IMG/VR virus record: IMGVR_UViG_3300025168_000033
Span: 1 to 64,000 of that record
Reading direction: 5' to 3' (one strand)
From: a virus
Length of the DNA stretch: 64,000 bases
In this document: positions 1,180-59,819 of the stretch, piece after piece
Layout: each line of letters starts with the position of its first letter
Numbering within the stretch: the stretch's first letter is position 1
Program-made: the position numbers and the translations under genes
Notes under the pieces: model-generated
What the model was told of the DNA's origin: nothing
What the model saw: the letters and a program-made list of their open reading frames with translations, nothing else
Databases searched by the model: none

Positions 1180-1569
1180 TTATTTGATATAATTTGAATC
1201 TATGTCTTTTTCTGCGATAAAGTAAAGTACTGGATTGTCACCTACAGATAATAACATATCACCTTCAAATTCAAATATTTTCCAATTTGAATTGAAGCCT
1301 GTAGATTTGTCTCTAAGAGTTCCACTCATAATTTCTTTACCTCTCATATGCGGTGGAACTGTTAATCCATAATCCATTTGTCGCATTTGATCTACTTTAG
1401 CACCCATGTATTTTTTAACAGCACTTTTTAATGCAGTACCTCTACCATATGCTCTGCTATCATCTGTAAATGTTTCTAAGCCACCATTGTGTGCATGTGG
1501 ATTCCACCAGCCCCTGTATGTAGTTTTAGCTTCATTCAAAAATTCTTTATATGTAGGTACGTTTTTCAT
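1180..1569 (-). CDS. Putative capsid-packaged internal protein, 129 aa
   Basis: The N-terminus MKNVPTYKEFLNEAK matches the T4 capsid targeting sequence and has a candidate prohead-protease site after E13 (LNE|A). The mature 116 residues contain a Trp/His-rich stretch (YRGWWNPHAHNGG) and a basic middle part. I do not recognise the mature domain. It is the last gene of the left cargo cluster, 20 bases after the cargo gene at 1590-1919. Confidence 0.7.
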   Translation of the reverse strand: MKNVPTYKEFLNEAKTTYRGWWNPHAHNGGLETFTDDSRAYGRGTALKSAVKKYMGAKVDQMRQMDYGLTVPPHMRGKEIMSGTLRDKSTGFNSNWKIFEFEGDMLLSVGDNPVLYFIAEKDIDSNYIK

Positions 1570-1589
1570 ATTATCCGAGCTTGTTTTTA

Positions 1590-1919
1590 TTAATCCATTG
1601 CTAAATCTACTCTAACATTTTTGTATTTCTTAAGCAGCTTTTTAATATTGAATCGTTTTTCTAATTGTTTGAAGACGTTAATTTGAATAATTCCAGCCAT
1701 CCAGGTATTACCCCATCCAATATTGTATCTTACAGTTCCCGGCTCATCACTATAAGTCAATTTAAAACCTGTATCTGTAGGTTCTGCAGCTGACTCTGAA
1801 TCCATTTTAAATGCCTCATAACCTAGGTCTTTATTGATTTTATCAAGGAGATTTAGTGTGTCCTTGTTAGTTAGTTTTGATTCGTTTAAAAATTCTTTGT
1901 ATGTACGTATGTTTTTCAT
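1590..1919 (-). CDS. Putative capsid-packaged internal protein, 109 aa
   Basis: Starts MKNIRTYKEFLNESK, a capsid-targeting-type peptide with a predicted cut after E13 (LNE|S). The mature part is a mixed alpha/beta domain with motifs TGFKLTYSDE and RYNIGWGNTW and a basic C-terminus. No family recognised. Its start overlaps the stop of the upstream cargo gene by four bases, implying translational coupling. Confidence 0.7.
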   Translation of the reverse strand: MKNIRTYKEFLNESKLTNKDTLNLLDKINKDLGYEAFKMDSESAAEPTDTGFKLTYSDEPGTVRYNIGWGNTWMAGIIQINVFKQLEKRFNIKKLLKKYKNVRVDLAMD

Positions 1920-2254
1920 AATGTGTTTATGATTTGATTTGCAATTGTTTTCATATCATCTCCAGAAATATAATTTCCAGTAGCATAACCACCAGTATTA
2001 ACATAGCTTTGCAATAGATTTACAATCCATTGAACATCTGTAGATGATAAATATTCACCGATTTCATTAGCAATTTTTTGAATGTCGGCTTCTGGAATAT
2101 AAAGTCCTTTTTCTGTTCTAAGAGTTGAATATGCATTAGTAGAATAATCACCTAATATGTATCTGACTCTTTTTTTATCTTTATTTTTGCCTTCGTTTAA
2201 TTTACCGTAAGTATTCAAAAATTCTGTGTATGTACTTATTTTTTTTACCTTCAT
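1916..2254 (-). CDS. Putative capsid-packaged internal protein with extended targeting peptide, 112 aa
   Basis: The N-terminus MKVKKISTYTEFLNTYGKLN is a longer variant of the cargo peptide. The first (L)xE site is after E21 (KLNE|G). The mature protein is tyrosine-rich and contains two similar segments, IPEADIQKIANEIGEYL and ISGDDMKTIANQIINTL, which look like an internal duplication. It is the first gene behind the class A element at 2281-2332. Function unknown. Confidence 0.65.
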   Translation of the reverse strand: MKVKKISTYTEFLNTYGKLNEGKNKDKKRVRYILGDYSTNAYSTLRTEKGLYIPEADIQKIANEIGEYLSSTDVQWIVNLLQSYVNTGGYATGNYISGDDMKTIANQIINTL

Positions 2255-2280
2255 AGCGTAGCGTGTATTTAAGTTGTCTG

Positions 2281-2332
2281 TTATTAATTATTTATAGTTA
2301 AATATAAACAAAAAAATCGACAGTAAAAAATC
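2281..2332 (-). promoter_or_regulatory. Class A promoter-like element, copy 2
   Basis: Sequence identical over about 50 bases to the block at 700-752. It lies 27 bases upstream of the cargo gene at 1916-2254 and just after the stop of the HAD gene. I infer a promoter. Its use here would let the last cargo genes be expressed separately from the late operon. Confidence 0.6.
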
Positions 2333-2346
2333 ATAGTGATATTTAT

Positions 2347-2961
2347 TTATAGCTTAGGTATCCATTTTTGTTTTATTAATTTAGCATCCATTTTAATGTT
2401 TGCATGTTTCTTTACTAGGCTTTTTGCAATATCAATATTTTCTTTAGAATCATCAAAGAATTTAAAATCATTAAATCCAAGATCGATTAATTCTTTAAAT
2501 GCCATTTCCTTTTTCTGTGGAACAGTTCCTTTAAATTTATGTATCGGATCGTTTATTGCAAATATGAAATCATCATTGATATCAATTCCGTGATATAAAA
2601 AGAAGTCTTTAATTAATTTCTTTTCACCTCTAGCAGTAATAATTCCTACAGCCTTTCTTTTCTTTAATGTAGCTTTTAAAATATCAAATACCCATTCAAT
2701 AAGTTTACCAGCTTTTAAGATTTCTAATGAATCAAAATCATCATAGTTTGTTTCATGATATGACATCTTTTCATAATCATTAAATTGCTGTGGAGTTAAT
2801 TCAAATCTTTCACCAGTCTTTGTATCATGAACCTTGATTTTTGCTTTAGTCAGGACCAGAGTGTCATCTACATCAAATACATTAATTGAATTACGACGCT
2901 TTGGATCTAGAAATTTATATTTCTTGCGTTCAGTTAAATATTGTTGAAATCTTAAAAACAT
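2347..2961 (-). CDS. HAD-superfamily phosphatase with capsid-targeting-like N-terminus, 204 aa
   Basis: Residues 28-33 hold the HAD nucleophile motif FDVDDT (D30, D32). Motif II is T109 in GIITARG, motif III is K150/K151 and motif IV is FFDDS with D170 and D171. All catalytic elements are present, so this is probably an active Mg-dependent phosphatase, perhaps on nucleotides or polynucleotide 3' ends. The start MFLRFQQYLTERKK resembles a shortened capsid targeting peptide with a site after E11 (LTE|R). It shares a base with the stop of the cargo gene upstream, which supports packaging. The substrate is not deducible. Confidence 0.75.
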   Translation of the reverse strand: MFLRFQQYLTERKKYKFLDPKRRNSINVFDVDDTLVLTKAKIKVHDTKTGERFELTPQQFNDYEKMSYHETNYDDFDSLEILKAGKLIEWVFDILKATLKKRKAVGIITARGEKKLIKDFFLYHGIDINDDFIFAINDPIHKFKGTVPQKKEMAFKELIDLGFNDFKFFDDSKENIDIAKSLVKKHANIKMDAKLIKQKWIPKL

Positions 2962-3203
2962 TACTTTTTTCTTTCTATTGGTTTACCTTTATTTGGCCCA
3001 TGACGATGAATATAACTTGAAGTACCAGTTTTAAGTTGTCTTACTAGTCTTTTACGTTCTTTATCTAATGGAATTATTTTACCTTCCTTTCTATCCATGT
3101 AAATATCATGGATTTCTTTCTCTAGCTCTTTAATTCTTTTAGCAATTTCATCATCGGATTTATCTTCGTTCAAGAATTCGTTAAATGTCGGTATATTTTT
3201 CAT
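2961..3203 (-). CDS. Putative capsid-packaged internal protein, 80 aa
   Basis: MKNIPTFNEFLNEDK is a clear cargo peptide with a site after E13 (LNE|D). The mature 67 residues are highly charged. A helical segment rich in Glu, Lys and Ile is followed by a basic tail (SSYIHRHGPNKGKPIERKK) suited to binding DNA inside the head, like the basic T4 internal proteins. No enzymatic motif seen. Confidence 0.7.
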   Translation of the reverse strand: MKNIPTFNEFLNEDKSDDEIAKRIKELEKEIHDIYMDRKEGKIIPLDKERKRLVRQLKTGTSSYIHRHGPNKGKPIERKK

Positions 3204-3212
3204 ATTATCCTG

Positions 3213-3659
3213 TTATTTATTTCGTTCTGGATTTGATACACTATTTTTCTTAGCATCAATAACCCATTTTGCATTACTAGCTGAAGTTGCATTTGATATT
3301 TGTTTCAAACTTTTCATAACAGCCTTATAGTTGTTTTCATCTTCCCTTCCTTTACCTCTAAAGATTTGAATATGATGTGGATCCATTTGTCTTTCTTTTG
3401 CTGGAATCAAATATCCAACAAAAGAATCAAGATGTTTGTCTTTTTTACTTGTATGCCAAACTTCGTAATGTATTTGTAATTCATCACCAATTTCGACTGT
3501 ATCTGGACTGTCTGGAGCAGCATCATAAAAAGAACTAGTAACTGTATATGTTCCATGAACATCAAAATCATGTTCTTTTTCATTCTTAACTTTAGGCTTA
3601 AAAATATTCTTTACAAAACCTTCGCTTAGAAACTCGTTAAATGTTGGTATATTTTTCAT
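3213..3659 (-). CDS. Putative capsid-packaged internal protein, 148 aa
   Basis: MKNIPTFNEFLSEGF is the cargo peptide, with a site after E13 (LSE|G). The mature part contains a probable beta domain (YTVTSSFYDAAPDSPDTVEI, then LQIHYEVWHTS) and a helical C-terminus. No family recognised. The gap to the next gene is ten bases and its leader (AACAGGATAATATG) is the same as that before the 2961-3203 gene. Confidence 0.7.
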   Translation of the reverse strand: MKNIPTFNEFLSEGFVKNIFKPKVKNEKEHDFDVHGTYTVTSSFYDAAPDSPDTVEIGDELQIHYEVWHTSKKDKHLDSFVGYLIPAKERQMDPHHIQIFRGKGREDENNYKAVMKSLKQISNATSASNAKWVIDAKKNSVSNPERNK

Positions 3660-3660
3660 A

Positions 3661-4035
3661 TTATCCTGTTATTGATTTTTTGTCATCCTTGATATACTCT
3701 TTGATTAAATCTAGCAATAAACCTAGATCATCATATCTTCCAGCAAAACCACTATGAATTATTCCAAAGCCGTCTCTACGATAAAGTGTAGTTGAATCGA
3801 TATCAATAACTACATTACCTGTAGCTTTTACATATCCTTTTCTAGTAGCTACATCATACCATAACCAAACCTGATCGTCGTTAATTTCTACAGTATATGA
3901 ATTTTTTGCATTTGATTTGAATTTCTTTTCAATAAAACCAGCAAGATCCTCTATTGATGTTACATCAGCAAATCTAGTATTGTTTGTTATTTTTGCCTCA
4001 TTAACAAATTCATTGTATGATGGTACGTTTTTCAT
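3661..4035 (-). CDS. Putative capsid-packaged internal protein, 124 aa
   Basis: MKNVPSYNEFVNEAK gives a predicted cut after E13 (VNE|A). The mature part has a helix and then a beta-rich section (YTVEINDDQVWLWYDV, VVIDIDSTTLYRRDGF), ending in a helix. Function unknown. Its start overlaps the stop of the membrane protein gene upstream by four bases. Confidence 0.7.
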   Translation of the reverse strand: MKNVPSYNEFVNEAKITNNTRFADVTSIEDLAGFIEKKFKSNAKNSYTVEINDDQVWLWYDVATRKGYVKATGNVVIDIDSTTLYRRDGFGIIHSGFAGRYDDLGLLLDLIKEYIKDDKKSITG

Positions 4036-4271
4036 TTTATAGTTTTTAATTTTCGTTTTAATACTTTTAATCTTAGCCTTTGGAATCTTGTCAATTCCTT
4101 AGTAAAGATATATTCATCCACCTTGAAAAAAATTAAGGATCCTACAAGATTTGCAATAAATGCAGTTATCCAAAAGTTTGAAATATCATACTTGGATAAT
4201 ATAAATGGGATGATTGCCAAAATAGGCGTGCTCATTTGCCACCTAAACATATATCTAAGTAATTTTCTCAT
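4032..4271 (-). CDS. Small two-helix membrane protein, 79 aa
   Basis: Two hydrophobic segments are visible, roughly residues 14-26 (TPILAIIPFIL) and 34-51 (WITAFIANLVGSLIFF). A strongly basic C-terminal tail (RFQRLRLKVLKRKLKTIK) follows, which the positive-inside rule places in the cytoplasm. There is no capsid targeting peptide, although the gene sits between two cargo genes with four-base overlaps on both sides. Possible roles are superinfection exclusion or membrane modification, both speculative. Confidence 0.6.
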   Translation of the reverse strand: MRKLLRYMFRWQMSTPILAIIPFILSKYDISNFWITAFIANLVGSLIFFKVDEYIFTKELTRFQRLRLKVLKRKLKTIK

Positions 4272-4981
4272 AAATCTTCTAAATCTAAAAATTGTAATGC
4301 TTGTTTGTATGTACGAGCAGATTCTCCAGTTTTAGCTTTAGCTGCTGCTAAAACTATTGCCATTGCTTCTTTACGTTTTGATCCAAATTTTACTTTCTTA
4401 ACAGTTTCTATTGCGGCTAATACTTCTGGATCAGCAGCTTCATTAACCTTAGATTTATTAAACCAAGCATCAAAATTATTATCATCAAAATCATCAGGGA
4501 ATGTAGTAGATATTCCATCTTCATCCTTTAATTCTATTTTATCTAATGCGGCTTTTGTTACAATAAATATATCACCTTCATCATCACGGAATTTATCACC
4601 TTTTTTAATAGGTGTTCCTTTATATGTTATTTTTTCTTTTAATAATTTACCTTCAGCAGCTTCATTAACCTTAGATTTAATTTTTTCAAGATCAGCTTTA
4701 GCCTTTTCAATATCCTTTTTAATAAACTTAATAGTTTTTGGATTTGTTTCTGCTGCTAATTCTTTATTTAAATCGATAAGATACATTGCAAGATTGTTCA
4801 TATCTCTTTGTGCTCCTTCGTTTAGAAATTGTTCGTAGGTTGGTAAATTTTTCATCTTAACGTTATCTGTCCATTTTTTATCAAATGCCCATTTGTATTT
4901 TTCAGGTGCATCTTCCTTAGTTTTATATTTACCTCTAAGAGCATATATCAATTTTAATTGCTGTTTACTTTTAGCTGGCAT
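4268..4981 (-). CDS. Cargo protein with upstream MPAKSK-type extension, possible polyprotein, 237 aa
   Basis: The frame opens with a 42-residue basic segment (MPAKSKQQLKLIYALRGKYK onward) that resembles small stand-alone phage proteins. It is followed in frame by MKNLPTYEQFLNEG at residue 43, a normal cargo start (ATG at 4855). Either the downstream ATG is used for packaging or the targeting peptide is internal. The motif SKVNEAA occurs twice more, near residues 104 and 177. Each has a V-N-E protease-like site, so maturation could release three segments. The central piece resembles a small beta domain (FRDDEGDIFIVTKAALDKIE); the last is helical. Confidence 0.65.
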   Translation of the reverse strand: MPAKSKQQLKLIYALRGKYKTKEDAPEKYKWAFDKKWTDNVKMKNLPTYEQFLNEGAQRDMNNLAMYLIDLNKELAAETNPKTIKFIKKDIEKAKADLEKIKSKVNEAAEGKLLKEKITYKGTPIKKGDKFRDDEGDIFIVTKAALDKIELKDEDGISTTFPDDFDDNNFDAWFNKSKVNEAADPEVLAAIETVKKVKFGSKRKEAMAIVLAAAKAKTGESARTYKQALQFLDLEDL

Positions 4982-4983
4982 CT

Positions 4984-5382
4984 TTATACTTTTATTATTT
5001 TTTGATCATAACCTACTCTAAAATCAGCACCTCTATATAAAGTTATAACAACAAATGACAAAGTATTTTTATTTTTCTCCATCACACCAACAATAGTTAA
5101 TCCATCAGATTCTCTTCTTAAGATAAATCTATCTTTATTAACATCCATATTATCGTCAACAAGGTCGTTTATAATTGCTACAGTAGCTTTACTTATTACC
5201 GCGTTAACTTCTTTAAATGTAACAGGCTCATATACTGAATTTCCAGTCTTATCTTTTCTAGTAAGTCTTTCTATTGCATGAGTTGTTGACTCAATATCTA
5301 TATCAAATTTAATCTTTCTAGATACATGCCCTTCAGCCTTTTCATTTAATTTAAATTGATTATATGTTGGAATATTCTTCAT
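4984..5382 (-). CDS. Putative capsid-packaged protein, RelE/DUF4258-like pattern, 132 aa
   Basis: MKNIPTYNQFKLNEKAE is a cargo peptide with one extra residue and a site after E14 (LNE|K). The mature part has the order STTHAIERLTRKD, a helix, FILRRESDGLTIVGVMEK and FVVITLYRG. This His-Ala-x-x-Arg helix plus C-terminal beta hairpin recalls DUF4258/RelE-type small RNases. The resemblance is by pattern only. If right, it would be an RNase delivered with the DNA. Confidence 0.6.
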   Translation of the reverse strand: MKNIPTYNQFKLNEKAEGHVSRKIKFDIDIESTTHAIERLTRKDKTGNSVYEPVTFKEVNAVISKATVAIINDLVDDNMDVNKDRFILRRESDGLTIVGVMEKNKNTLSFVVITLYRGADFRVGYDQKIIKV

Positions 5383-5385
5383 GAT

Positions 5386-5655
5386 TTAAATTACAATTAC
5401 GGATTTAAAATCTGCAGCTAACGCACCATACCATCCAGATGTTCCTCCATGGTAAATATCTTCTAGAACACTTACATCAATTTCAATCGAGTATACTTTC
5501 GTTTTATCAGACCATGAGAAGTCTTTATATAATTCCCAGCCTTCATCCTTAATAAATTTTTTAAATTCTTCATACTCCTTTAGTTTATAAAAAGCCAAAG
5601 TAATTGTATTTTTAGCCTCATTCAAAAATTCGTTATATGATGGTATGTTTTTCAT
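5386..5655 (-). CDS. Putative capsid-packaged internal protein, 89 aa
   Basis: MKNIPSYNEFLNEAK gives a site after E13 (LNE|A). The mature 76 residues look like a compact alpha/beta domain: a strand (TITLAFYKL), a helix with EEFKKFIKDEGWEL, a strand (VYSIEIDVSVL) and a Gly/Trp loop (HGGTSGWYG). No family recognised. It is just upstream of the 4984-5382 cargo gene, with a three-base gap. Confidence 0.7.
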   Translation of the reverse strand: MKNIPSYNEFLNEAKNTITLAFYKLKEYEEFKKFIKDEGWELYKDFSWSDKTKVYSIEIDVSVLEDIYHGGTSGWYGALAADFKSVIVI

Positions 5656-5681: not shown

Positions 5682-7451
5682 TCATTTTATAGCTATGCTT
5701 ATATTTCTAGAAGTTTTTTGTGTAGACTCGGTTTGCTTATTTTTAAAATGGCTTGCAAATACTGAAGAACCACCAGCCTGATTAAATATTTCTTCTATAG
5801 CAGCATTAGATACTTTATCTCTATCACCTTCATCACCGGGTTTAGTGCTGTTCATTCTACTTGCATCATATTCGGTATATTCAACTTTATATTTAGTTGG
5901 AAGTGTTATTTCAATATCCATGTCGTAATAATCATCATCAATTAATTTTACTGTACCGACATCACTTTTAATAACCTTATTTCCAGCAAATTGATTAAAA
6001 TCCGTCTTTGCCTTTACGTCTTTATATGCAGCAGATATTAACGGATCTTTAATATAATCCATATTATTTAAGCCTAATTCAATTACAAATTTAACCTCAT
6101 TTCTAGTTGAACTTAATATTCTTGTATTTGAAATATATTTTGTAAAGACATTAAAAAGTGGCATTTGCATATTTTGAAATGCTTCAGCATCAGTTATTCT
6201 AGAACCTGGATATTTCTTTTTAAATTCTGCTACAGTAATTTTAGAAACAATCTTAAATTGCATTCTATCATTAATTGATAACGTATCAAACGGAGAATTT
6301 AAGAAATCCATTGCTGAATCTGCTTTAGTAGTTCCCCATGCGCCACCGCCACCTTTAATAGATTTTGTAAATTCTCTAAGTGCATCATCACCTTCTTCAC
6401 CAGGTATCATTACATCGACTTCATAATCTTTAGCTTTAGGTGATACAATAATTTCCTGTTGATTCCAAAAACTATGATCGACTGGTAGATTTCTTAAGTC
6501 TGCTACTACTTGATCTGGATTTACCTTCCATTTTAATAGCATATAATATCCGCCTTTACGATCTTTAATGAAATCCTGATCAGTCATAAAACTTGCTGCA
6601 GTTCCTCGATCTATTGAAAAGCTAGTAGCCTTTCCTTGTGATACTCCTGGCTTTGCACCAGGATACCATTTCTTACTCCATTTTACTAGGTCCTTGATTT
6701 TAGCACCATCATAAAATATTCCTCGATAAACATATTTTGGAAGTTTAGATGAATCTACTGAAAGTTTTTGTAACAAAGGAAATACTTCAGGTTTTAATCT
6801 TTTACGGCTCATGCTTGTCCAGGTAACAACATGTGACATTGCAATTTTTACATCACGTTCGCTCAATCCAACCTTAAGTAACATTTTATCATATTGCTTT
6901 TGACCTAGATTTTTAGCACCATCTAAAGCGGTTGATGTCCATTTAAGAATATCTGTTACTTTATTCCAGTTTTTTTCTAGCCAATCAATAAATTCAATGC
7001 CACCTTCAAGTTCAGTTATTATATCACCAAAGTCCTGACCCGGTAATTTAAACGATGAGCCATACTTTTTTGAAATTTCCTCTTTAAACGTTTTAAATGT
7101 TTTGTGCTTTATTATTTGTTTAGCTAAATCATCATGACCATACCAGCTCCAGTTTTTATTATATCCTGCTATAATCTTAGCATAAGTCCAGTTTGCTTTA
7201 CTAGATGTGCCTTTCAATGTAAATATTGTATCAGAACCCTTGAGTTTTCCGGCTTTAGATAAAGCTTGATTTTTAATTTTTTCTTGAACTTTATATCCTT
7301 CACGGGTATCTATTTGTGGATTCCATTCGTCTTTACCCCAATCAACCCCTTTAGAATAATCCGATAAATATTCCGGATTATTCTTAAAGAATTCTACTGC
7401 TTTATTTTTTTCAGTTATTAGCCAATCGTTATAGTTAGGTAAATTTTGCAT
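5682..7451 (-). CDS. Capsid-packaged ADP-ribosyltransferase, Alt-like, 589 aa
   Basis: The N-terminus MQNLPNYNDWLITEK is a capsid targeting peptide with a site after E14 (ITE|K). Residues about 190-345 form an R-S-E type mono-ADP-ribosyltransferase domain: R243 in YVYRGIF, the S-T-S-like motif ATSFS at 275-279, and the catalytic E333 in QQEIIVSP. The residue two before the glutamate is Q, the pattern of QxE rather than ExE enzymes, so the target may not be arginine. T4 Alt is likewise packaged and modifies host RNA polymerase on injection. This is the functional counterpart, at similar size. The C-terminal 200 residues have no recognised domain. It is preceded by a late promoter box at 7471-7480. 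Confidence 0.85.
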   Translation of the reverse strand: MQNLPNYNDWLITEKNKAVEFFKNNPEYLSDYSKGVDWGKDEWNPQIDTREGYKVQEKIKNQALSKAGKLKGSDTIFTLKGTSSKANWTYAKIIAGYNKNWSWYGHDDLAKQIIKHKTFKTFKEEISKKYGSSFKLPGQDFGDIITELEGGIEFIDWLEKNWNKVTDILKWTSTALDGAKNLGQKQYDKMLLKVGLSERDVKIAMSHVVTWTSMSRKRLKPEVFPLLQKLSVDSSKLPKYVYRGIFYDGAKIKDLVKWSKKWYPGAKPGVSQGKATSFSIDRGTAASFMTDQDFIKDRKGGYYMLLKWKVNPDQVVADLRNLPVDHSFWNQQEIIVSPKAKDYEVDVMIPGEEGDDALREFTKSIKGGGGAWGTTKADSAMDFLNSPFDTLSINDRMQFKIVSKITVAEFKKKYPGSRITDAEAFQNMQMPLFNVFTKYISNTRILSSTRNEVKFVIELGLNNMDYIKDPLISAAYKDVKAKTDFNQFAGNKVIKSDVGTVKLIDDDYYDMDIEITLPTKYKVEYTEYDASRMNSTKPGDEGDRDKVSNAAIEEIFNQAGGSSVFASHFKNKQTESTQKTSRNISIAIK

Positions 7452-12825: not shown

Positions 12826-12848
12826 AGTGTGTGTATTTAATGTATCTG

Positions 12849-12899
12849 TTATTAATTATTATAGTATAAATATAAACAAAATAATCGACAGTAAAAAAT
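12849..12899 (-). promoter_or_regulatory. Class A promoter-like element, copy 5
   Basis: Minus strand ACTGTCGATTATTTTGTTTA, then TATTTATACTATAATAATTA. Nearly identical to the copies at 27634 and 52355. It overlaps the stop codon of the upstream gene (12899) and is followed by the AAATACACACACT leader of the gene at 12445-12825. Confidence 0.6.
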
Positions 12900-21074: not shown

Positions 21075-21779
21075 TCATTTATTCCATTTATCTGTAAATG
21101 TTTTTTGTTGTCCCATTGTAATTCTTGCTTGATTTTTTGAATCTAATGTAATTCCAGTTTTACCAAGATTTCCATCGTGATGATTTACAACTGAATCGCA
21201 CACTAGAGCATGTTTAATATTGTTTGTTTCTAATGTCAATGCATAATCATTATCACAAAACCAAAATTCAAAGTTTTCATCAAGTTTGCCTCCTGGATAT
21301 GTATCATAAATATCTCGTTGCTGAAATATACACCATCCTGCTAGTTCACCTCTTACTCGATATCCTTCATAAATTTTGCCTTTATGTTGTGAATTATCTC
21401 CTTGTGTTTGAGGGCACCATGGACTTACAGATTTATATATTGGATTAGTTTCCATAAAGTCAATGATAACATTTGCCCAATCCCTTTCAAATGTCAAATC
21501 ATTATTACAAAGTGCAACATATTTTGATTTACCCGCTTTACGACCAATATTTAGATATCGATGATAACCAAAAGGTACTTCAGGATGGATAGTTGTAACT
21601 TTATGCTTCCACTTGAAATCATTATATTCATTGTATGTGATATCTGAATTAGATTCTATCACATAAACATAAAATGTACCATCGGCTTTTGTCAACGAAT
21701 TAATAGCATCTTTAGTTACTTTCTTTAACTCTTCAGTTTTTGCATCACTTATTAATACTACGTCTATTACTCTTTTCAT
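21075..21779 (-). CDS. Glycosyltransferase, GT-A fold, 234 aa
   Basis: Begins VIDVVLISDAKTEELKKVTK, with a nucleotide-binding N-terminus. A long insertion contains YVALCNNDLTFERDW, where NND replaces the usual DxD, and FEFWFCDNDYALTLE, where DND is an alternative metal site. The closing VCDSVVNHHDGNLGKTGI resembles the C-terminal His motif of GT2 enzymes. A probable sugar transferase acting on a glycan made by the neighbouring genes. Confidence 0.75.
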   Translation of the reverse strand: MKRVIDVVLISDAKTEELKKVTKDAINSLTKADGTFYVYVIESNSDITYNEYNDFKWKHKVTTIHPEVPFGYHRYLNIGRKAGKSKYVALCNNDLTFERDWANVIIDFMETNPIYKSVSPWCPQTQGDNSQHKGKIYEGYRVRGELAGWCIFQQRDIYDTYPGGKLDENFEFWFCDNDYALTLETNNIKHALVCDSVVNHHDGNLGKTGITLDSKNQARITMGQQKTFTDKWNK

Positions 21780-22230
21780 AATTTATTAAAGTTTTATATT
21801 CAGATATTTTATCGGAGCATATTCCATTGCAATTATCAATATTCCAATTTGTTGTAATTTCTGGCATAACTGCAATAGATTTCGATGTTAATTTCTTACC
21901 TGGATATGTCCATATATATTTCTTAGATGTTAATGTCACATCATCTTCTTGATGCCAAAAGTAATTAAATTCATATCCACACTCAGCCAAGAATACCATA
22001 GATTCTAGATCTTTACAATGAATCCACAGTTTAATCAGTCGATCTTTGAACCATCTAAAGTCAACCTTATATTGAGGTTTGTCATGACCTAGAAATAAAA
22101 CGTTATCAACAAACCAAACGTCAATCTCAACATCATAGCCTTCTTTAATTGCTTTGTCGATATATGTTGGCTCGTTTTCATACGATTCAAATCTACCGTT
22201 TATATTTCCTCTATGTGATATTAATTTCAT
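21745..22230 (-). CDS. GDPD-like phosphodiesterase, 161 aa
   Basis: Glycerophosphodiester phosphodiesterase type barrel start: LISHRGNINGRFESYENEPT (catalytic His, Arg and Glu region), then EGYDVEIDVWFVDNVLFLGH containing ExD and a second catalytic His. This set (HR...E...ExD...H) is the GDPD signature. At 161 aa it lacks the C-terminal part of the 250-aa barrel, so it is a minimal or partial form. It may trim a glycerol phosphate-linked polymer. It overlaps the glycosyltransferase start by 35 bases. Confidence 0.7.
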   Translation of the reverse strand: MKLISHRGNINGRFESYENEPTYIDKAIKEGYDVEIDVWFVDNVLFLGHDKPQYKVDFRWFKDRLIKLWIHCKDLESMVFLAECGYEFNYFWHQEDDVTLTSKKYIWTYPGKKLTSKSIAVMPEITTNWNIDNCNGICSDKISEYKTLINYEKSNRRSINK

Positions 22231-22964
22231 AAATACCCAGCTAATATAGTTTTTAATTTTTCAGAATTATTAATAACTCTCATGTGTTCTTGACATTTAC
22301 CAGCATAAATATTATCCTCTCGTAGATTAACTTTTATAATATTTGACACATAGTTTGGTATCCAAGTGTGGTATTGATATTTATTTGTATACATTGATAT
22401 AGAATCATATAAATACTTGAATTTATTTGCGTTCGTATGAGACATAACAAAATGAAAGTCACCTCCACAAGAACCATTCCAAGCATTACAATAAATACTA
22501 TTTGTTACATCATACATATCTAAATTCATATCAGCCCATAGTAAAATATCATATCGATACACTATTACTATATCGTATTTTATATTTTGCTCTATTTCAT
22601 AAATATCCTTTAATTCTATAGATTTCTTAATTGATAGTGATCCACTAACACCACCAAAATCAGAAGATTTCACAATGGTTGGTGTTATGACTGTATCATA
22701 TCTTGTATTGTCTTCAAACAAGTGTTTTTTAGGTTCATAAATTCGAGTTAAGTTATATGATAAATCTAGATTCCAGCCATGAAGAAAAAAATCAAATTCA
22801 TAATCTGGATTGACATTAATTATGTGTTTAAATATTGAATTTCTAACTGCAACATAATCAATATATTCACCGACTCTATAAACATCACCTGGAACACAAA
22901 ATCGTACATCATCGGCATCTTTTTTACCAACAGCTCCTTTAATACAGATTGCTACTCTTTTCAT
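22227..22964 (-). CDS. Probable glycan-related transferase, 245 aa
   Basis: The start MKRVAICIKGAVGKKDADDV is a Rossmann-like first strand and loop. It contains VNPDYEFDFFLHGWNLDLSY and IKYDIVIVYRYDILLWADMN, a pattern of phage or capsule-locus proteins acting on sugars. The closing part is aromatic-rich. No exact family; assignment rests on context in the 21-26 kb glycan cluster. Confidence 0.55.
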   Translation of the reverse strand: MKRVAICIKGAVGKKDADDVRFCVPGDVYRVGEYIDYVAVRNSIFKHIINVNPDYEFDFFLHGWNLDLSYNLTRIYEPKKHLFEDNTRYDTVITPTIVKSSDFGGVSGSLSIKKSIELKDIYEIEQNIKYDIVIVYRYDILLWADMNLDMYDVTNSIYCNAWNGSCGGDFHFVMSHTNANKFKYLYDSISMYTNKYQYHTWIPNYVSNIIKVNLREDNIYAGKCQEHMRVINNSEKLKTILAGYL

Positions 22965-22973
22965 ATTATTTTA

Positions 22974-23669
22974 TTATTTAATTATATATGCAGTTGGACA
23001 AAAATAATCTAGATATTTGAGTTCGATGCCTTTCTCTTCTATAAATCTGTCAACTCCGACAGATTCACTCCACTTATGATAGCCATATTCATCGAATATA
23101 ATAATTCCACCTTTACTAACACGATCCCATAAATTACATAACGATTCATAAGTTGGTTCATCCAAGTCTAAATCCATGTATAAAAATGAGATCTTAAATC
23201 CAGGATTTTCTATAACAAATGTTCTAGTAGTTTCTATTATATTACCTTCAATTAGTTCAAAATCGTCAGTAGTAAATCCATCAGATATCAAATTATCTGA
23301 TAATAGTTGTTTGTATGAAGTTCCATAATTAAAGTCTCTACCATTAAATAAAGTGCTCATAGCATTTTTATCGTGATCTGATTTAATAGATGATAACAGA
23401 TCATCAGTATTGAAAAAATCAAATCCAATAACTTTCTTTGATCCGTTAGGGTTCATTAAGGTTTTCAACTTTAAAAATGTATATAATCCACTACCTTTAA
23501 AAACACCGCATTCAACTATATCACCTGGAACATGTTTTACTGTATCATACAATAAAGTTCTTGCAATTAATTTATTGAAAAGTCGTCTATCAGAACTCAT
23601 TATAAATGAATTAAAACTATCATATAGTTCTTGAGTGTTTGATGTAATTTCTAAATTTTCTATTTTCAT
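22974..23669 (-). CDS. TylF-like SAM-dependent O-methyltransferase, 231 aa
   Basis: Macrocin O-methyltransferase-type protein. VPGDIVECGVFKGSGLYTFL is the SAM-binding glycine motif, IGFDFFNTDD follows, and ISFLYMDLDLDEPTYESLCN and GGIIIFDEYGYHKW supply the metal and catalytic region. Such enzymes methylate hydroxyls of sugars in antibiotic and capsule pathways. A glycan methylation step is therefore likely. Confidence 0.8.
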   Translation of the reverse strand: MKIENLEITSNTQELYDSFNSFIMSSDRRLFNKLIARTLLYDTVKHVPGDIVECGVFKGSGLYTFLKLKTLMNPNGSKKVIGFDFFNTDDLLSSIKSDHDKNAMSTLFNGRDFNYGTSYKQLLSDNLISDGFTTDDFELIEGNIIETTRTFVIENPGFKISFLYMDLDLDEPTYESLCNLWDRVSKGGIIIFDEYGYHKWSESVGVDRFIEEKGIELKYLDYFCPTAYIIK

Positions 23670-23705
23670 AATTTCTATTTAGTAAATTTGTTAATTTTTA
23701 TCTTG

Positions 23706-25073
23706 TTATTTTAATTTATTTTTAATATACGTTTTTAAATCTTCTGGGGTTCCTAATCCCCACATTTTAGGTACATCAAAAGTTTTTATTTTTTTATTAT
23801 CTGCAATTGCCTGATTAAATACAGGACAAACATAAAATTCATCATTTACTCTAACATTTTGTTCAATCATTTCTTCTGCATATTTTACAAAATCTGAACC
23901 GTTTTTCCAATAGTAATATCCTACAGTTGCAATATCAGAAATTGGATTTTTCTCGGCAACTTCAGTTACATATCCTTCTTCGTTTATTTTTGCAAAAGAC
24001 CATTTAGGATGCGTAGCTCTGAAAGTAACCATTCCACCATCAACGTTGCTTTCATTCATTTTGTACATGAATTCGTTAGAATCCCATTCTACAAATTGAT
24101 CTGAATTTGCAAAGAATAACGGAGCATCAGAATCAATAAATTCCTTTGCCAATAAAGCGGTACAAGCAGCACCTTCAGTTATGCCATCAGTTTCTACTAT
24201 CGTACAACCTGGAGTAATCAGATTTAATAACGTATCTAAGTTATATTGCTTTCTATGTGATTTCTGTACAACATAAATATAATTAGCTTCGATATTCAAG
24301 TTATCAACAACTACTTGTATCATTGGTTTGTTATCAACTTCTATTAATGGTTTTGGAAATGTGTAACCAGCTTTTACAAATCGACTACCTGCACCAGCCA
24401 TTGGAATAAGTACATTTAATTTATTATCTTTCCATTTAGGTATGTCCATAGTATGACTATTTTTGATGTTATTTGTTATGTTTTCGTATGTTACTTCTTT
24501 AGGATTTTTGACTCTTAAAATATGAGATTTACTACGAGCAGCCGCCAATAAACCTGTTGGAGAATCCTCAACAATAAGAGTTTCTTCTGGTAAATAATTC
24601 ATTTTAGACATTGCAGTCCAATACATCTCTGGATGAGGTTTGCTGTTTTGAACATCCTCATTCGATATAATCAAATCCATATATTCAATTAAACCAATCT
24701 TAGCTAACATTACAATTACTGATCGTCTAATTGAATTAGAACAGCATGCTATTTTATATCCATCGGTTCTCAATTTTATGAAAGTTTCAATTAGATTATG
24801 ATCAAACGTTAAACTTGAAATTGCTTCTATTGTTAACTGTTGTTTCATATCCCAAATAGCTGTATGAAAAGCTGCTCGGAGATTCTTTCGTTCAGTTAAC
24901 ATCTCTAATTTCTGATTAGTTTTTAAGCCATCATATAATGTCAAATGCTCATTTAAGTTAATAGCAAACTCTGAACCTGCAATATGTTCAATTGCAGAAT
25001 TTAGTGTAGTATAGTGAATATCTTTAGCTTCTACTAAGACTCCATCTAGATCAAATATTATTAGTTGTATCAT
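23706..25073 (-). CDS. Bifunctional HAD phosphatase / sugar nucleotidyltransferase, 455 aa
   Basis: Residues 1-210 are a HAD-IA phosphatase: FDLDGVLVEA (nucleophile Asp, residues 8-12), CCSNSIRRSV and EDSPTGLLAA. Residues 224-455 are a nucleotidyltransferase: VLIPMAGAGSRFVKAGYTFP with KPLIEVDNKPM, then NSDQFVEWD. Together they would dephosphorylate and activate a sugar phosphate or a related alcohol phosphate as an NDP or CDP precursor. The fusion may channel an intermediate. It ends 36 bases before the methyltransferase start. Confidence 0.88.
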   Translation of the reverse strand: MIQLIIFDLDGVLVEAKDIHYTTLNSAIEHIAGSEFAINLNEHLTLYDGLKTNQKLEMLTERKNLRAAFHTAIWDMKQQLTIEAISSLTFDHNLIETFIKLRTDGYKIACCSNSIRRSVIVMLAKIGLIEYMDLIISNEDVQNSKPHPEMYWTAMSKMNYLPEETLIVEDSPTGLLAAARSKSHILRVKNPKEVTYENITNNIKNSHTMDIPKWKDNKLNVLIPMAGAGSRFVKAGYTFPKPLIEVDNKPMIQVVVDNLNIEANYIYVVQKSHRKQYNLDTLLNLITPGCTIVETDGITEGAACTALLAKEFIDSDAPLFFANSDQFVEWDSNEFMYKMNESNVDGGMVTFRATHPKWSFAKINEEGYVTEVAEKNPISDIATVGYYYWKNGSDFVKYAEEMIEQNVRVNDEFYVCPVFNQAIADNKKIKTFDVPKMWGLGTPEDLKTYIKNKLK

Positions 25074-25735
25074 TTTCTTTTTATAATGAATTTTGTGAAA
25101 TATTTGTACTTATCATTAATTAGCATTTCAAAATTATAATCACCTTCTAATGAATCTAATGTAATTCCATAAATATCAAACAATATTGCCCAACCTCGTT
25201 CCATTCCCATTTGCTGAATTTTATTGATTGGATATATTAAATGATCAGATTTTATTCGCTTAATATCTTCAACATGAATAGAAAACATAGGACCAAAAAC
25301 ACCTTTATTGTATTTTATCTGTCCGAACGAATTAAAACAAAAATCGACTTGTTCTTGAGAATCATATAAATTAGTATTAAATTGAATTAAATTAACAGCT
25401 GTACCAGGTTTTAATTTTTCATCTATTGCTTTGAAAAAATCACTGCGTTTTATTCTAATTGAATCTTGTATAAAAAAGAATTTATCTGATTTGATGTTAT
25501 TTATCGCATAAATATATGCCCCAGTATCAAAACCCCTATATGGTGTTTTGTGAACATGTATTGTGTAATTATATGGATTTGTTTTTGCTATCGAATCTAA
25601 AAATTCTATAGTATCTAATTCATTTGATTGCGTATCAATAATAGCCACATCGTGACCTAATAAATCAATGTCTTCTAAATTTACAAGAAGCTTGGATAAA
25701 TGTAGCTTTCCGTTATGTGACGCTATTACTATCAT
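25070..25735 (-). CDS. Probable glycosyltransferase, 221 aa
   Basis: Starts MIVIASHNGKLHLSKLLVNL; contains HDVAIIDTQSNELDTIEFLD and HKTPYRGFDTGAYIYAINNI, a GT2-like order, then FFFIQDSIRIKR where the metal-binding aspartate would sit. Short for the family and divergent, so confidence is moderate. First gene downstream of the nuclease-like gene; overlaps the HAD-nucleotidyltransferase by four bases. Confidence 0.55.
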   Translation of the reverse strand: MIVIASHNGKLHLSKLLVNLEDIDLLGHDVAIIDTQSNELDTIEFLDSIAKTNPYNYTIHVHKTPYRGFDTGAYIYAINNIKSDKFFFIQDSIRIKRSDFFKAIDEKLKPGTAVNLIQFNTNLYDSQEQVDFCFNSFGQIKYNKGVFGPMFSIHVEDIKRIKSDHLIYPINKIQQMGMERGWAILFDIYGITLDSLEGDYNFEMLINDKYKYFTKFIIKRK

Positions 25736-40616: not shown

Positions 40617-41207
40617 TTATAGTTCAATTGATTTTATATCATATGCTGACGGACCCCAAAATAATACTTGTTCAACATCGTCACCAAAGTGATAATTTTT
40701 AATTGCATCAGTGGATTTAAATGTAATAGGATAAGATCCCCAATGCTTTGCGCCTTTTTGTAAAGTTCCGTATTTTTCTAACATATCATCATAATCAAGA
40801 CCATAGTTGTATCCAATATCTCTTTTAGGCTTATGTCGTGAAGACCAATTCATACCTAATTTAAGATAATCAGATTCACCGTAAATAAAGCCGTTTTTAA
40901 CAATATTTTGTCGAATTTTTTCTGATGATACAAAATGTACAATTAGTTTATCTGATGGATGATCTTCAGCAGGTGCATCAAAGAAATACATAGTTGGCAG
41001 TTTACTATAGTATTTTCGGTTATTAACTTTTGTAATTAGCTTAGCTGCATCAGACTCAGAATCAAGTTTTTCTTGAGGTAATATATGATCTTTGATCCAT
41101 TTTGCAAGTGACATATTGGTTCTATCAAAATGTTTCTTTAGAACATCAGTCCTTTTTCTACTAGCAGATTCATTCAAAAATTCATCGTATGACTGTAGAT
41201 TTTTCAT
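40617..41207 (-). CDS. Putative capsid-packaged protein, possible ADP-ribosyltransferase fold, 196 aa
   Basis: MKNLQSYDEFLNESASRKR is the cargo peptide, cut after E13 (LNE|S). The mature part has the order KLIVHFVSSEKIRQNIVKNG, IGYNYGLDYDDM, WGSYPITFKSTDAIKNYHFG and EQVLFWGPSAYDIKSIEL. This resembles the H-(Y)-E type of ART-like domains (His-Ser, Gly-Tyr, C-terminal Glu-Gln-Val strand). Resemblance is weak and an unrelated fold is possible. Confidence 0.6.
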   Translation of the reverse strand: MKNLQSYDEFLNESASRKRTDVLKKHFDRTNMSLAKWIKDHILPQEKLDSESDAAKLITKVNNRKYYSKLPTMYFFDAPAEDHPSDKLIVHFVSSEKIRQNIVKNGFIYGESDYLKLGMNWSSRHKPKRDIGYNYGLDYDDMLEKYGTLQKGAKHWGSYPITFKSTDAIKNYHFGDDVEQVLFWGPSAYDIKSIEL

Positions 41208-41208
41208 G

Positions 41209-41580
41209 TTATTTCTTTTTTATGTCATCATGTTTAGGCTTTGGTCCTTTACCTTTTAACCAATCTGCAATATCTTTATCCGCAGTTTTATATGCAGTTC
41301 CTTTTTCTGTAAATACCGTCATTCTAGCATTACCCCATGCATTAAATGCAGCCGGCTTTCCTAGCTTTTTTATGTGTGGTCTTACAGCACCCCAGTTAGT
41401 AATTGCTGCACCATATCCTCTTAAAAATGCTGCCATTAATGCATATTCTAAATCTTTTGCATTTTTAGCTCCTAATGATTTTTGTAATTTTGGATCTTTT
41501 GAAAGTTTTTCTGCTCTTGATTCTGCTGCACTTTGCTTTGCTTCATTCAAGAATTCATCATACGATTGTAAATTTTTCAT
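41209..41580 (-). CDS. Putative capsid-packaged internal protein, 123 aa
   Basis: MKNLQSYDEFLNEAKQSAA gives a site after E13 (LNE|A). Mature residues are helical (SKDPKLQKSLGAKNAKDLEY) with an Ala/Gly-rich middle (LMAAFLRGYGAAITNWGAVR) and a basic C-terminus (KGKGPKPKHDDIKKK). No family recognised. Confidence 0.7.
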   Translation of the reverse strand: MKNLQSYDEFLNEAKQSAAESRAEKLSKDPKLQKSLGAKNAKDLEYALMAAFLRGYGAAITNWGAVRPHIKKLGKPAAFNAWGNARMTVFTEKGTAYKTADKDIADWLKGKGPKPKHDDIKKK

Positions 41581-42242
41581 ATTGTATATTGTGCTTTTGG
41601 TAGATTTTTTTTAGCAAATGTAATCCAGGTTTTAAGTACCTTATTTCTTTCAGTTTTAGTCATTAATTTTTGATCGATAAAATAATCAAGATATTCATTA
41701 AATACATCATTTAACGGTCGCTTTTCTGTTTTTGCTTGACGATACATTCCGTTTGCCATTGCTGGAACTTCATCCTTTAATAGAAAGTATTTATATAGAT
41801 TTCCTTTATCTCCGCTTATTTTATTTCTAATAATCGATCCAGTTATTTTAACCTTACTTGGACGTCTATTTTCACCGCCTTGAGTTAAATGTTCTATTTC
41901 ATGCCTAGCTGCATCCTGTAAAACTGCATTTAATTTTTGATAGCTTTGCGGTTCTTTAGCCGGATCCAAAGTAACAATAAATTCTATACCATTTACTGAT
42001 GGATAAGCACCAGCATCAACAATAACTCCTCGAGAATTTGATACCGCTTCACGTTTTATAAATAATTGTGCGTCATCAATAAATACCTTATCATTAAATT
42101 CACCTAAATCAAATTGTAACATTTCATGCTCTCCTTTAGGACTTGTTAATTTGATTATTGGCCAAATAGCATCTACTATTTCACCGGCAAGTTTATCATA
42201 ACTTCCTTCATTTAAGAATTGATTGTAATTTTTATATCTCAT
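41577..42242 (-). CDS. Capsid-packaged HExxH metalloprotease, 221 aa
   Basis: MRYKNYNQFLNEGSYDKLA is a cargo peptide cut after E12 (LNE|G). HEIEH at residues 114-118, in AARHEIEHLTQGGENRR, is the HExxH zinc-peptidase motif. E158 in LLKDEVPAMANG is a candidate third ligand, as in gluzincins. The region before it (KREAVSNSRGVIVDAGAY) resembles the beta sheet edge of such enzymes. Substrate unknown; it may cleave a host protein on ejection. Four-base overlap with the next cargo gene. Confidence 0.8.
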   Translation of the reverse strand: MRYKNYNQFLNEGSYDKLAGEIVDAIWPIIKLTSPKGEHEMLQFDLGEFNDKVFIDDAQLFIKREAVSNSRGVIVDAGAYPSVNGIEFIVTLDPAKEPQSYQKLNAVLQDAARHEIEHLTQGGENRRPSKVKITGSIIRNKISGDKGNLYKYFLLKDEVPAMANGMYRQAKTEKRPLNDVFNEYLDYFIDQKLMTKTERNKVLKTWITFAKKNLPKAQYTI

Positions 42243-52170: not shown

Positions 52171-52336
52171 TACAATAATCTTTTGCATCTTCTAAAAGAC
52201 CGTTGAAATATCCGAGTAAATCGTATAGTTCCTCTTCGTTAATGAATTCTACGTTTGGAACTGTGAGAGTATCAAGACCGTTAACATCGATAAAATCTTG
52301 AACTTTTGCTGTTGGAATTGTTTTTGCGTTTGTCAT
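52163..52336 (-). CDS. Small acidic protein, 57 aa
   Basis: ATG at 52336 opens MTNAKTIPTAKVQDFIDVNG and ends at 52163, a 57-residue acidic helical protein. Preceded by the class A element at 52355-52410 and its AATACACATACACATG leader, which supports translation. Function unknown. Confidence 0.5.
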   Translation of the reverse strand: MTNAKTIPTAKVQDFIDVNGLDTLTVPNVEFINEEELYDLLGYFNGLLEDAKDYCNG

Positions 52337-52354
52337 GTGTATGTGTATTTGTGA

Positions 52355-52410
52355 GTTATTAATTAATTTATAGTATAAATATAATCAAAAGGATCGACAG
52401 TAAAAAATCC
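52355..52410 (-). promoter_or_regulatory. Class A promoter-like element, copy 8
   Basis: Minus strand GGATTTTTTACTGTCGATCC, then TTTTGATTATATTTATACTA and TAAATTAATTAATAAC. Its downstream part is followed by the ACACATACACATG leader of the 57-aa gene at 52163-52336. Confidence 0.6.
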
Positions 52411-52429
52411 TGCCGAACCTTTTTTTTCA

Positions 52430-52546: not shown

Positions 52547-53011
52547 TTATTTTATTTTGATTCTATTCATGTATGTGATCTTGTGTCCCATCTGTTCGTA
52601 ATGTTTAGTTGGGGTTCCGTCGATAGTAATTTCTTCACCTAACTCAGCAGAGATGTAAAGTTTGATTTTGTTGCCATCGGCAGTTTCAGCTATCACACCT
52701 TCATATTGCGTTTTTGTGATAGTTAATTTTAAATCTTTAATTCGCTTCTTAAGAGTTCCAAAGAATTCGCTTGTAGAATTTTCTTTGTTTCTTTTTGCGA
52801 TTGAATCGAAGTATTCAGAAACCTTTGCTTTTGCAGCACTCAACAAATTTAATTTTTTGTTGATTGTTGCTTGACCAACTCGCCAACCAGATTGAGAGTA
52901 ATATGGATCGTAATTTTTAGTGAACCAGATTAGCCAATTGATATCACTTAATGCGATTTCAGCGATTGTTCTTCCTGTGTGTTTTCCGAATGTAATTGTC
53001 AAATTTTCCAT
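52547..53011 (-). CDS. Exonuclease-X-C-terminal-like domain protein, 154 aa
   Basis: The start LTITFGKHTGRTIAEIALSD, then INWLIWFTKN, resembles the small C-terminal domain of exodeoxyribonuclease X and related proteins (FGKHKGK...DPGYLxW). The rest is basic helical (FGTLKKRIKDLKLTITKTQY) and beta. No exonuclease active site is present, so it is probably a DNA- or protein-binding factor. Class A element upstream at 53035-53090. Confidence 0.6.
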   Translation of the reverse strand: MENLTITFGKHTGRTIAEIALSDINWLIWFTKNYDPYYSQSGWRVGQATINKKLNLLSAAKAKVSEYFDSIAKRNKENSTSEFFGTLKKRIKDLKLTITKTQYEGVIAETADGNKIKLYISAELGEEITIDGTPTKHYEQMGHKITYMNRIKIK

Positions 53012-53034
53012 GTGTGTGTATTTATGTGTTATCA

Positions 53035-53090
53035 GTTATTAATTATTTATAGTTAAATATAATCAAAAAAATCGACAGTAAAAAATCCTG
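53035..53090 (-). promoter_or_regulatory. Class A promoter-like element, copy 9
   Basis: Same core as the others: minus strand AGGATTTTTTACTGTCGATT, T run, GATTATATTTAACTATAAAT, AATTAATAAC. It lies 24 bases before the exonuclease-X-like gene start, with an AAATACACACACATG leader. Confidence 0.6.
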
Positions 53091-53100
53091 GTGAACTTTT

Positions 53101-53430
53101 TTAAAAATCTTTATTTTTAAGCTCTGCTATTTCGTATTCCCAGTTCTTATCGAGTTGTAGTAATGCAAATACCAGATCCTTTTTGCGTTCATAGCTATTG
53201 TAATCTTCGAAGTATTCATATAGATTTTCATCTACATTATCATCAAGTATTGCAACTTCCCACCAGGTAGTTTCGCAACTATCTTCGTTGAAATTAACTG
53301 TGAAATTTTTTCCTGTGTATGTGTAGTAACCGGGAAGTTTAGTAATTTTGTCGTTAATAAGAAGTTCGGCTTTAGTAACTCTACTTCCGAAATCTCTTAC
53401 TTGTTGTGCAACTGTACGATATTTTTTCAT
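53101..53430 (-). CDS. Hypothetical protein, 109 aa
   Basis: Soluble protein with beta content (KITKLPGYYTYTGKNFTVNF) and acidic helical end (NLYEYFEDYNSYERKKDLVF). It begins 25 bases after the class A element at 53455-53510. No family recognised. Confidence 0.5.
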   Translation of the reverse strand: MKKYRTVAQQVRDFGSRVTKAELLINDKITKLPGYYTYTGKNFTVNFNEDSCETTWWEVAILDDNVDENLYEYFEDYNSYERKKDLVFALLQLDKNWEYEIAELKNKDF

Positions 53431-53454
53431 GATGTGTGTATTTATGTGTTATCA

Positions 53455-53510
53455 GTTATTAATTATTTATAGTTAAATATAAACAAAATAATTGACAATA
53501 AAAAATCCTG
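53455..53510 (-). promoter_or_regulatory. Class A promoter-like element, copy 10
   Basis: Minus strand AGGATTTTTTATTGTCAATT, TATTTTGTTTATATTTAACT, ATAAATAATTAATAAC. Minor differences from consensus at the CTGTCGAT part. It directs the gene at 53101-53430. Confidence 0.6.
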
Positions 53511-53516
53511 ATGAAC

Positions 53517-54014
53517 TTATTTTTTGGATTTTTTCAAATACTCCATGAATGCCTTCTGGTCTTTACGTAATAAGGCTTTACAGTAATGTGTGAATGCTAA
53601 TGAATCTTCAAGTATTAAATTAGGCACCATTTTTGCATCCTTGACATAACGCTCGTTACATGATTCACACACAAAATTATCAGGCTTAAAATAATCCATC
53701 TGTGATTCTATCGGAATTTTACAGTATGCACAATCCCATTTTACTAGTTTAAGATTTCTATTCATCTCAACCAGATTAGTAATTTCTTTTGTGTGCGGAT
53801 CTACATAAACTTTTCTAAACATTGGATTGTCTAGAATTTGATCCTCCATTTTAAATATGATTTTTAATGCGGCATCATCGGGTGAGATTTCATCCAACAA
53901 TTTATCTTGTGTTAATAGCTTTACGTGCCTAGGCAAAAGAAGGTCCAGAATAATTCTGAACCTTGTTTTTCTTCTTCCTTTATTTTGTCTTTTTATAATA
54001 GACTTTCTAGCCAT
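53517..54014 (-). CDS. Double CxxC zinc-binding protein, 165 aa
   Basis: A basic N-terminus (KSIIKRQNKGRRKTRFRIIL) is followed by helices and a zinc site built from KWDCAYCKIPIES and NFVCESCNERYVK. The two pairs are 21 residues apart, as in zinc ribbons or treble-clef folds. It may bind nucleic acid or RNA polymerase. Gene lies at the boundary of late head genes. Confidence 0.6.
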   Translation of the reverse strand: MARKSIIKRQNKGRRKTRFRIILDLLLPRHVKLLTQDKLLDEISPDDAALKIIFKMEDQILDNPMFRKVYVDPHTKEITNLVEMNRNLKLVKWDCAYCKIPIESQMDYFKPDNFVCESCNERYVKDAKMVPNLILEDSLAFTHYCKALLRKDQKAFMEYLKKSKK

Positions 54015-57854: not shown

Positions 57855-57897
57855 TTTATGTCCGTACATAATATTTTGATTTTTTTAAGTTTGGTTT

Positions 57898-59736: not shown

Positions 59737-59768
59737 ATTTGTAGGTTTATTTTTAGCTTGGCTATTTG

Positions 59769-59779
59769 TTATATATATC
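59769..59779 (-). promoter_or_regulatory. Late promoter box (class B)
   Basis: Minus strand GATATATATAA, 32 bases before the protease-scaffold start at 59736. Would drive protease and capsid genes together, since no box precedes the capsid gene. Confidence 0.55.
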
Positions 59780-59819
59780 AAGTTCACATTTACAAATGTG
59801 GTATCATTTTATAATACTT

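Follow-up and report, generated by a model that had tools for sequence, protein, structure and literature searches.

A putative head-packaged ADP-ribosyltransferase with a QxE motif in a virus with many capsid-targeting N-termini

The window analyzed here comprises positions 1 to 64,000 of the virus record IMGVR_UViG_3300025168_000033, which is 166,532 bases long. As judged from their Pfam matches, the head genes of the virus are of the T4 type, with a Gp23 capsid protein, a Gp20 portal and a gp21-type protease. The protein of interest is encoded by a minus-strand open frame of 589 amino acids, in which a central candidate ADP-ribosyltransferase (ART) domain is preceded by a predicted capsid-targeting peptide (CTS) and followed by a long C-terminal region that may be a target-binding part.

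5682 to 7451, minus strand: candidate packaged R-S-E ADP-ribosyltransferase ORF; open frame, ATG at 7451, 589 amino acids
7410 to 7451, minus strand: predicted capsid-targeting peptide MQNLPNYNDWLITE, residues 1 to 14, predicted cleavage after E14 (I-T-E)
6867 to 7409, minus strand: N-terminal region, residues 15 to 195, without recognized fold or relatives; no database match
6393 to 6866, minus strand: candidate ART domain, residues 196 to 353; 15 to 24% identity in ModA/ModB alignments
5685 to 6392, minus strand: C-terminal region, residues 354 to 589; no relatives found
1180 to 5655, minus strand: co-directional ORF run downstream, most with a CTS-type N-terminus; starts 5655, 5382, 4855, 4035, 3659, 3203, 1919 and 1569
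56193 to 57869, minus strand: major capsid protein Gp23 (Pfam Gp23, E 6.1e-36)
57898 to 59787, minus strand: prohead protease, gp21-type, the expected CTS-cleaving enzyme (Pfam Peptidase_S77, E 6.2e-11, above cut-off)
59820 to 61418, minus strand: T4-type portal protein Gp20 (Pfam Portal_T4, E 1.8e-68)

The nearest annotated phages by terminase were large uncultured phages, Sphingomonas phage PAU and the Tenacibaculum phages PTm1 and pT24 (32 to 44% identity), and terminases 51 to 55% identical were found in about 79 other metagenomic contigs. The record IMGVR_UViG_3300001450_009970 was dropped as an independent relative since its 100% identity over 24556 to 132966, a span that leaves out the 5682-7451 ORF, marks it as the same virus. 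In one uncultured phage of 462 kb (LR756500.1), the terminase gene is apparently split by an intein-like insertion, its second part following ...NHRLYTNGILSSQ.

To score the N-terminus, a CTS matrix (PSSM) was built from 22 other N-termini of the virus and applied to 1,131 candidate starts. MQNLPNYNDWLITE reached 14.2 bits and rank 26; all starts scoring above it were of the CTS type, whereas the highest score of any clearly unrelated start was 3.5 bits. The peptide is among the most divergent CTSs of the set (core members scored 30 to 46 bits), and it retains the N-L-P-x-Y-x-[DE]-[FW]-L pattern as well as an I-x-E cleavage site. T-even internal proteins have only the CTS in common (PMC3012670), and MQNLPNYNDWLITE likewise resembles the N-termini of other CTS-type ORFs of its own virus, as expected of T4-type capsid-targeted internal proteins. 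In addition, ITE-14 fits the [L/I]-x-E protease site, a gp21-type Peptidase_S77 is encoded in the genome, and T4 Alt itself is cleaved by gp21 after ITE-6 (PMC5694885). The CTS score and the ITE end thus bear out the initial annotation, which had described a capsid peptide like that of T4 Alt. The 5682-7451 ORF furthermore heads the run of CTS genes. From its sequence, packaging of the protein in the phage head appears likely.

The same annotation had assigned R243, an ATSFS motif and E333 to one R-S-E catalytic set, with glutamine two residues before the glutamate. All of these residues are exactly in place in the ORF translation, where QQE is read directly at positions 331 to 333.

6723 to 6725, minus strand: R243, candidate NAD-binding Arg, in YVYRG; aligns with the ModA/ModB R of LYRG/LWRG
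6621 to 6623, minus strand: S277, candidate Ser of an STS-type motif, ATSFS-x-D-xx-TAASF; aligns with ModA VVSAS and ModB-type VxSFS
6453 to 6476, minus strand: putative ARTT loop, residues 326 to 333, HSFWNQQE; direct reading against the consensus of PMC7827354
6414 to 6416, minus strand: D346 in YEVDVMIP, rival catalytic position in some ModA/ModB alignments

R243 in YVYRG shows the (Y/F)R context at a strand end that characterizes the R-S-E class, and S277 in ATSFS corresponds to the STS-type serine, with the motif (A275-T-S-F-S) reading TSFS, not STS. HSFWNQQE agrees at every defined position with the ARTT-loop consensus, X-X-aromatic-X-X-[E/Q]-X-E (PMC7827354), a loop that is common but not universal among R-S-E ARTs; F328 takes the aromatic position, Q331 is the sixth residue, and E333, the candidate catalytic Glu, has Gln at -2 within NQQEIIVSP. 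We then used an R-S-E pattern so loose that T4 Alt, ModA and ModB all fit it. Among the 1,445 ORFs of 100 amino acids or more in the virus and 16 relatives, it matched only the 5682-7451 protein, and it was found in 46 of 20,000 shuffles of that protein's own sequence. The R-S-E motif set exceeds chance. The rarity of the pattern, the profile register of R243 and S277 and the ARTT loop all support the catalytic set proposed at the outset.

With a ModA/ModB profile, hhalign ranked the domain first of 352 proteins, at a probability of 34% versus 10% for the next unrelated protein, and the resulting alignment paired R243 and S277 with the catalytic Arg and Ser, respectively. Against a larger profile, the domain scored 30.2, while 150 shuffles and the reversed domain did not exceed 23.9; Alt domains, which are true but distant ARTs, scored 16 to 35 and thus bracketed the candidate, and true ModA/ModB members scored above 160. 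In hmmsearch with a ModA/ModB model, the protein obtained an E of 1.9, no better than unrelated ORFs. These comparisons suggest a weak profile link to ModA/ModB at the superfamily level, and not membership of that group. Homology to the Alt family was rejected, as tblastn gave no match and Alt-only profiles, which placed the candidate at rank 211 of 352, did not recover it. Of the initial comparison with Alt, the packaging peptide and the contrast with ExE held; packaging peptide apart, the candidate is not an Alt homologue as far as profiles can tell, the nearer profile being that of ModA/ModB.

Searches for closer relatives returned nothing. No Pfam, PHROGs, NCBIfam or PDB entry matched the candidate at a meaningful E-value, nor did PF01129 or PF03496 match when searched on the genome. 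No homologue was detected by tblastn against phages to an E of 10, in plasmids, in viral contigs (four queries), in bacterial and archaeal genomes (two queries), in 57 related phage records searched by single sequence or in 50 searched with a ModA/ModB-plus-query model. By these searches the candidate is a sequence orphan. A family-model match is a criterion of detection only, and some ARTs escape it. AlphaFold gave a pLDDT of 37.5 without an alignment and of 39.0 with one (20 ModA/ModB N-halves, picked to leave the choice between E333 and D346 unbiased), values too low for a usable fold.

The position of the catalytic glutamate is ambiguous from sequence alone. When the candidate was aligned by MAFFT with domains of ModA/ModB and Alt, this position fell on E333 or on D346, depending on the sequence set. 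We prefer E333 since it is a glutamate, since it puts F328 at the aromatic position of the ARTT loop (which K341 would occupy if D346 were catalytic), and since the stretch behind it, IIVSP-KAKD-YEVDVMI, looks on direct reading like the strand-turn-strand of ExE-hhhPxG motifs, with weak strand predictions. The stretch past D346, VMIPGEEGDDALREF, lacks this look on the same direct reading.

Set against known systems, the candidate shares with T4 Alt its large size, a capsid-targeting propeptide at the N-terminus with ITE at its end, the R-S-E set and the expected injection with the DNA, but its ART domain is central instead of forming the C-terminal part, it has QxE where Alt has ExE, and the two show no detectable sequence similarity. 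By profile, the best match was to T4 ModA and ModB, and it takes in the SFS-x-D-xx-TA-xx-F segment and the helix that precedes the R motif; ModA and ModB differ in being about 200 amino acids long, in being without a CTS here, in being all ExE and in having additional residues that separate the Ser motif from ExE. C3 and ScARP, likened here from the literature only, have the same aromatic-x-x-Q-x-E ARTT loop (PMC7827354), whereas QxE ARTs of the C3 type and of the ScARP/Scabin/pierisin type are secreted toxins or cellular enzymes and not virion proteins. Virion-carried ARTs are common in contractile-tailed phages, head-packaged ones are well documented, and for about 44% of phage ARTs the context suggests head packaging (PMC9503650). 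Delivery by the virion is also shared with polyvalent and MuF-fused phage ARTs (PMC9503650), but the candidate would use a CTS, and no MuF or multidomain polyvalent architecture was recognized in it. Provided that the fold is confirmed, it would be a packaged ART working like T4 Alt but outside the Alt family, given the lack of detectable homology, the central ART domain and the missing ExE.

What the QxE loop implies for the target is a matter of probability. In every Alt and ModA/ModB copy in which the motif was read, the -2 position is Glu, and the candidate departs from this. Whether C3 modifies Asn or Arg depends on the sixth ARTT residue, and its Gln contacts the acceptor Asn; in ScARP, a QxE ART that modifies guanine, the Gln contacts the guanine (PMC7827354). 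A published rule assigns QxE enzymes to Asn, Gln or Cys (PMC3000352). Certhrax, however, is a QxE ART (PMC6628389), yet it modifies vinculin at Arg-433 (PMC7866387), so that "not arginine" is only a probability for the candidate. The initial proposal that QxE enzymes modify Asn, Gln or Thr rather than Arg is therefore too strict as a rule, given Arg-433 for Certhrax and guanine for ScARP. The target of the candidate more probably differs from that of Alt than coincides with it, and guanine bases, in nucleic acid or GTP, are further candidate targets that the initial proposal had not named.

Taken together, these data suggest that the protein is probably a mono-ADP-ribosyltransferase of the R-S-E class that is packaged in the virion and has a QxE ARTT loop. 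For its fold, activity, packaging, cleavage and target, we infer the following course. The N-terminal peptide would bring the protein into the prohead core, and the gp21-type protease would, by the example of T4, remove residues 1 to 14 after ITE. Ejected along with the DNA, the mature protein would act on the host at once. R243 and S277 would serve in NAD binding and E333 in the cleavage of nicotinamide from NAD, with F328 and Q331 selecting the acceptor. Because of the QxE loop, this acceptor is expected to be other than arginine somewhat oftener than not, being either a side chain (for example, Asn, Gln or Thr) or the guanine of DNA, RNA or GTP. The full picture, namely, a head-delivered R-S-E ART that spares arginine and instead modifies guanine (of host nucleic acid or GTP) or the side chains of Asn, Gln or Thr, within an unusually large capsid-targeted arsenal of about 30 proteins, is put forward as a tentative one, less probable than not.

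A packaged R-S-E ART could instead modify arginine despite its QxE, with a function near that of T4 Alt on host RNA polymerase or translation proteins. We consider this rather unlikely: it has the precedent of Certhrax and its Arg-433 target (PMC6628389, PMC7866387), and the nearest profile is that of ModA and ModB, which have the hallmarks of R-S-ExE ARTs specific for Arg (PMC10468400), but every Alt and Mod copy read has Glu and not Gln at -2, and in C3 it is this sixth loop residue that decides between Asn and Arg (PMC7827354). That the domain is derived from an ART but is catalytically dead or altered, for instance with D346 at the position of the catalytic Glu and a fortuitous QQE, is improbable. 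Many alignments do set D346 on the ModA/ModB glutamate; F328-xx-Q331-x-E333, however, fits the full ARTT loop, D346 would bring K341 to the aromatic position, and the strand-turn-strand look is found behind E333 and not behind D346.

Two further explanations give up either the fold or the packaging. The protein could be an internal head protein of another fold, an inhibitor or a DNA-binding protein like T4 IPI, in which the R-S-E match arose by chance. The absence of any family match, the low pLDDT and the basic character of the mature protein (pI of about 9.2) are compatible with such a protein, but the rarity of the R-S-E pattern, the profile rank and register and the complete ARTT loop make it unlikely. 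Conversely, the N-terminal peptide might not be a packaging signal, and the enzyme might be made after infection and stay intracellular like ModA and ModB. The divergence of the CTS, with its 14.2 bits, points in this direction; against it, the CTS pattern and the I-x-E site are kept, the gene heads the CTS gene run, and its start outscores all clearly non-CTS starts, so that we regard this explanation, too, as having little probability. The preferred reading remains a packaged R-S-E ART with a QxE loop. The characterized packaged ARTs of T4 are of the ExE, arginine type. Such an enzyme, if real, would widen the chemistry that phages inject as infection begins, with nucleic acid or nucleotides as possible additions. 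It would also offer a fresh test of a widely applied but imperfect rule, according to which the target is set by the residue at -2 from the catalytic Glu.

The CTS-type N-terminus is not confined to this gene. About 30 ORFs of the virus begin with variants of MKN-x-x-S-Y-x-E-F-L-N-E, with the following starts.

CTS-type starts in the window: 1569, 1919, 3203, 3659, 4035, 4855, 5382, 5655, 7451, 8747, 38515
CTS-type starts in the window, continued: 40608, 41207, 41580, 42242, 45426, 46127, 46564, 47041, 55671, 56098, 63578
Beyond those listed: further CTS-type starts up to record position 96829

The same pattern picked out 30 such ORFs in the virus and 0 to 2 per record in 16 related records, among them contigs of 181, 140 and 122 kb; as it was derived from this virus, and as the 16 records are mostly fragments, relatives are possibly undercounted. 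Read from N-termini, capsid-targeted proteins thus appear to have expanded massively in this virus. The count is striking and may be of greater interest than the enzyme alone, as it suggests that N-termini can directly reveal entire sets of injected host-manipulation proteins.

Some of these ORFs carry features of their own. In the 196-residue CTS protein encoded at 40617 to 41207 (minus strand), LIVHFVSSEKIRQNIVKNGFIYGE resembles by eye the first motif of DarT/KptA-like ART-fold enzymes; the protein has no Pfam or PHROGs match. The CTS protein at 41577 to 42242 (minus strand) contains RHEIEHLTQG, a possible HExxH-like metal-binding site of a packaged peptidase, and has no family match. Within the CTS cluster, the minus-strand ORF at 2347 to 2961 encodes a HAD/polynucleotide-kinase-like protein (PHROG 415, E 1.6e-05), whose N-terminus, MFLRFQQYLTE, resembles a short CTS.

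Elsewhere in the window, the minus-strand ORFs at 21075 to 25735 form a cluster that, by eye from the translations, is glycosyltransferase-like, methyltransferase-like and HAD/nucleotidyltransferase-like, perhaps serving glycosylation of a virion or host component. Finally, dispersed AT-rich repeats of about 90 to 100 bp, mostly 83 to 94% alike, occur in about 17 full or partial copies, many of them apparently near gene boundaries.

AT-rich repeat copies in the window: 678 to 755, 2263 to 2347, 12827 to 12899, 52334 to 52424, 53004 to 53102, 53423 to 53522
AT-rich repeat copies at record positions: 154576, 158610, 161400, 163303, 164566 and others
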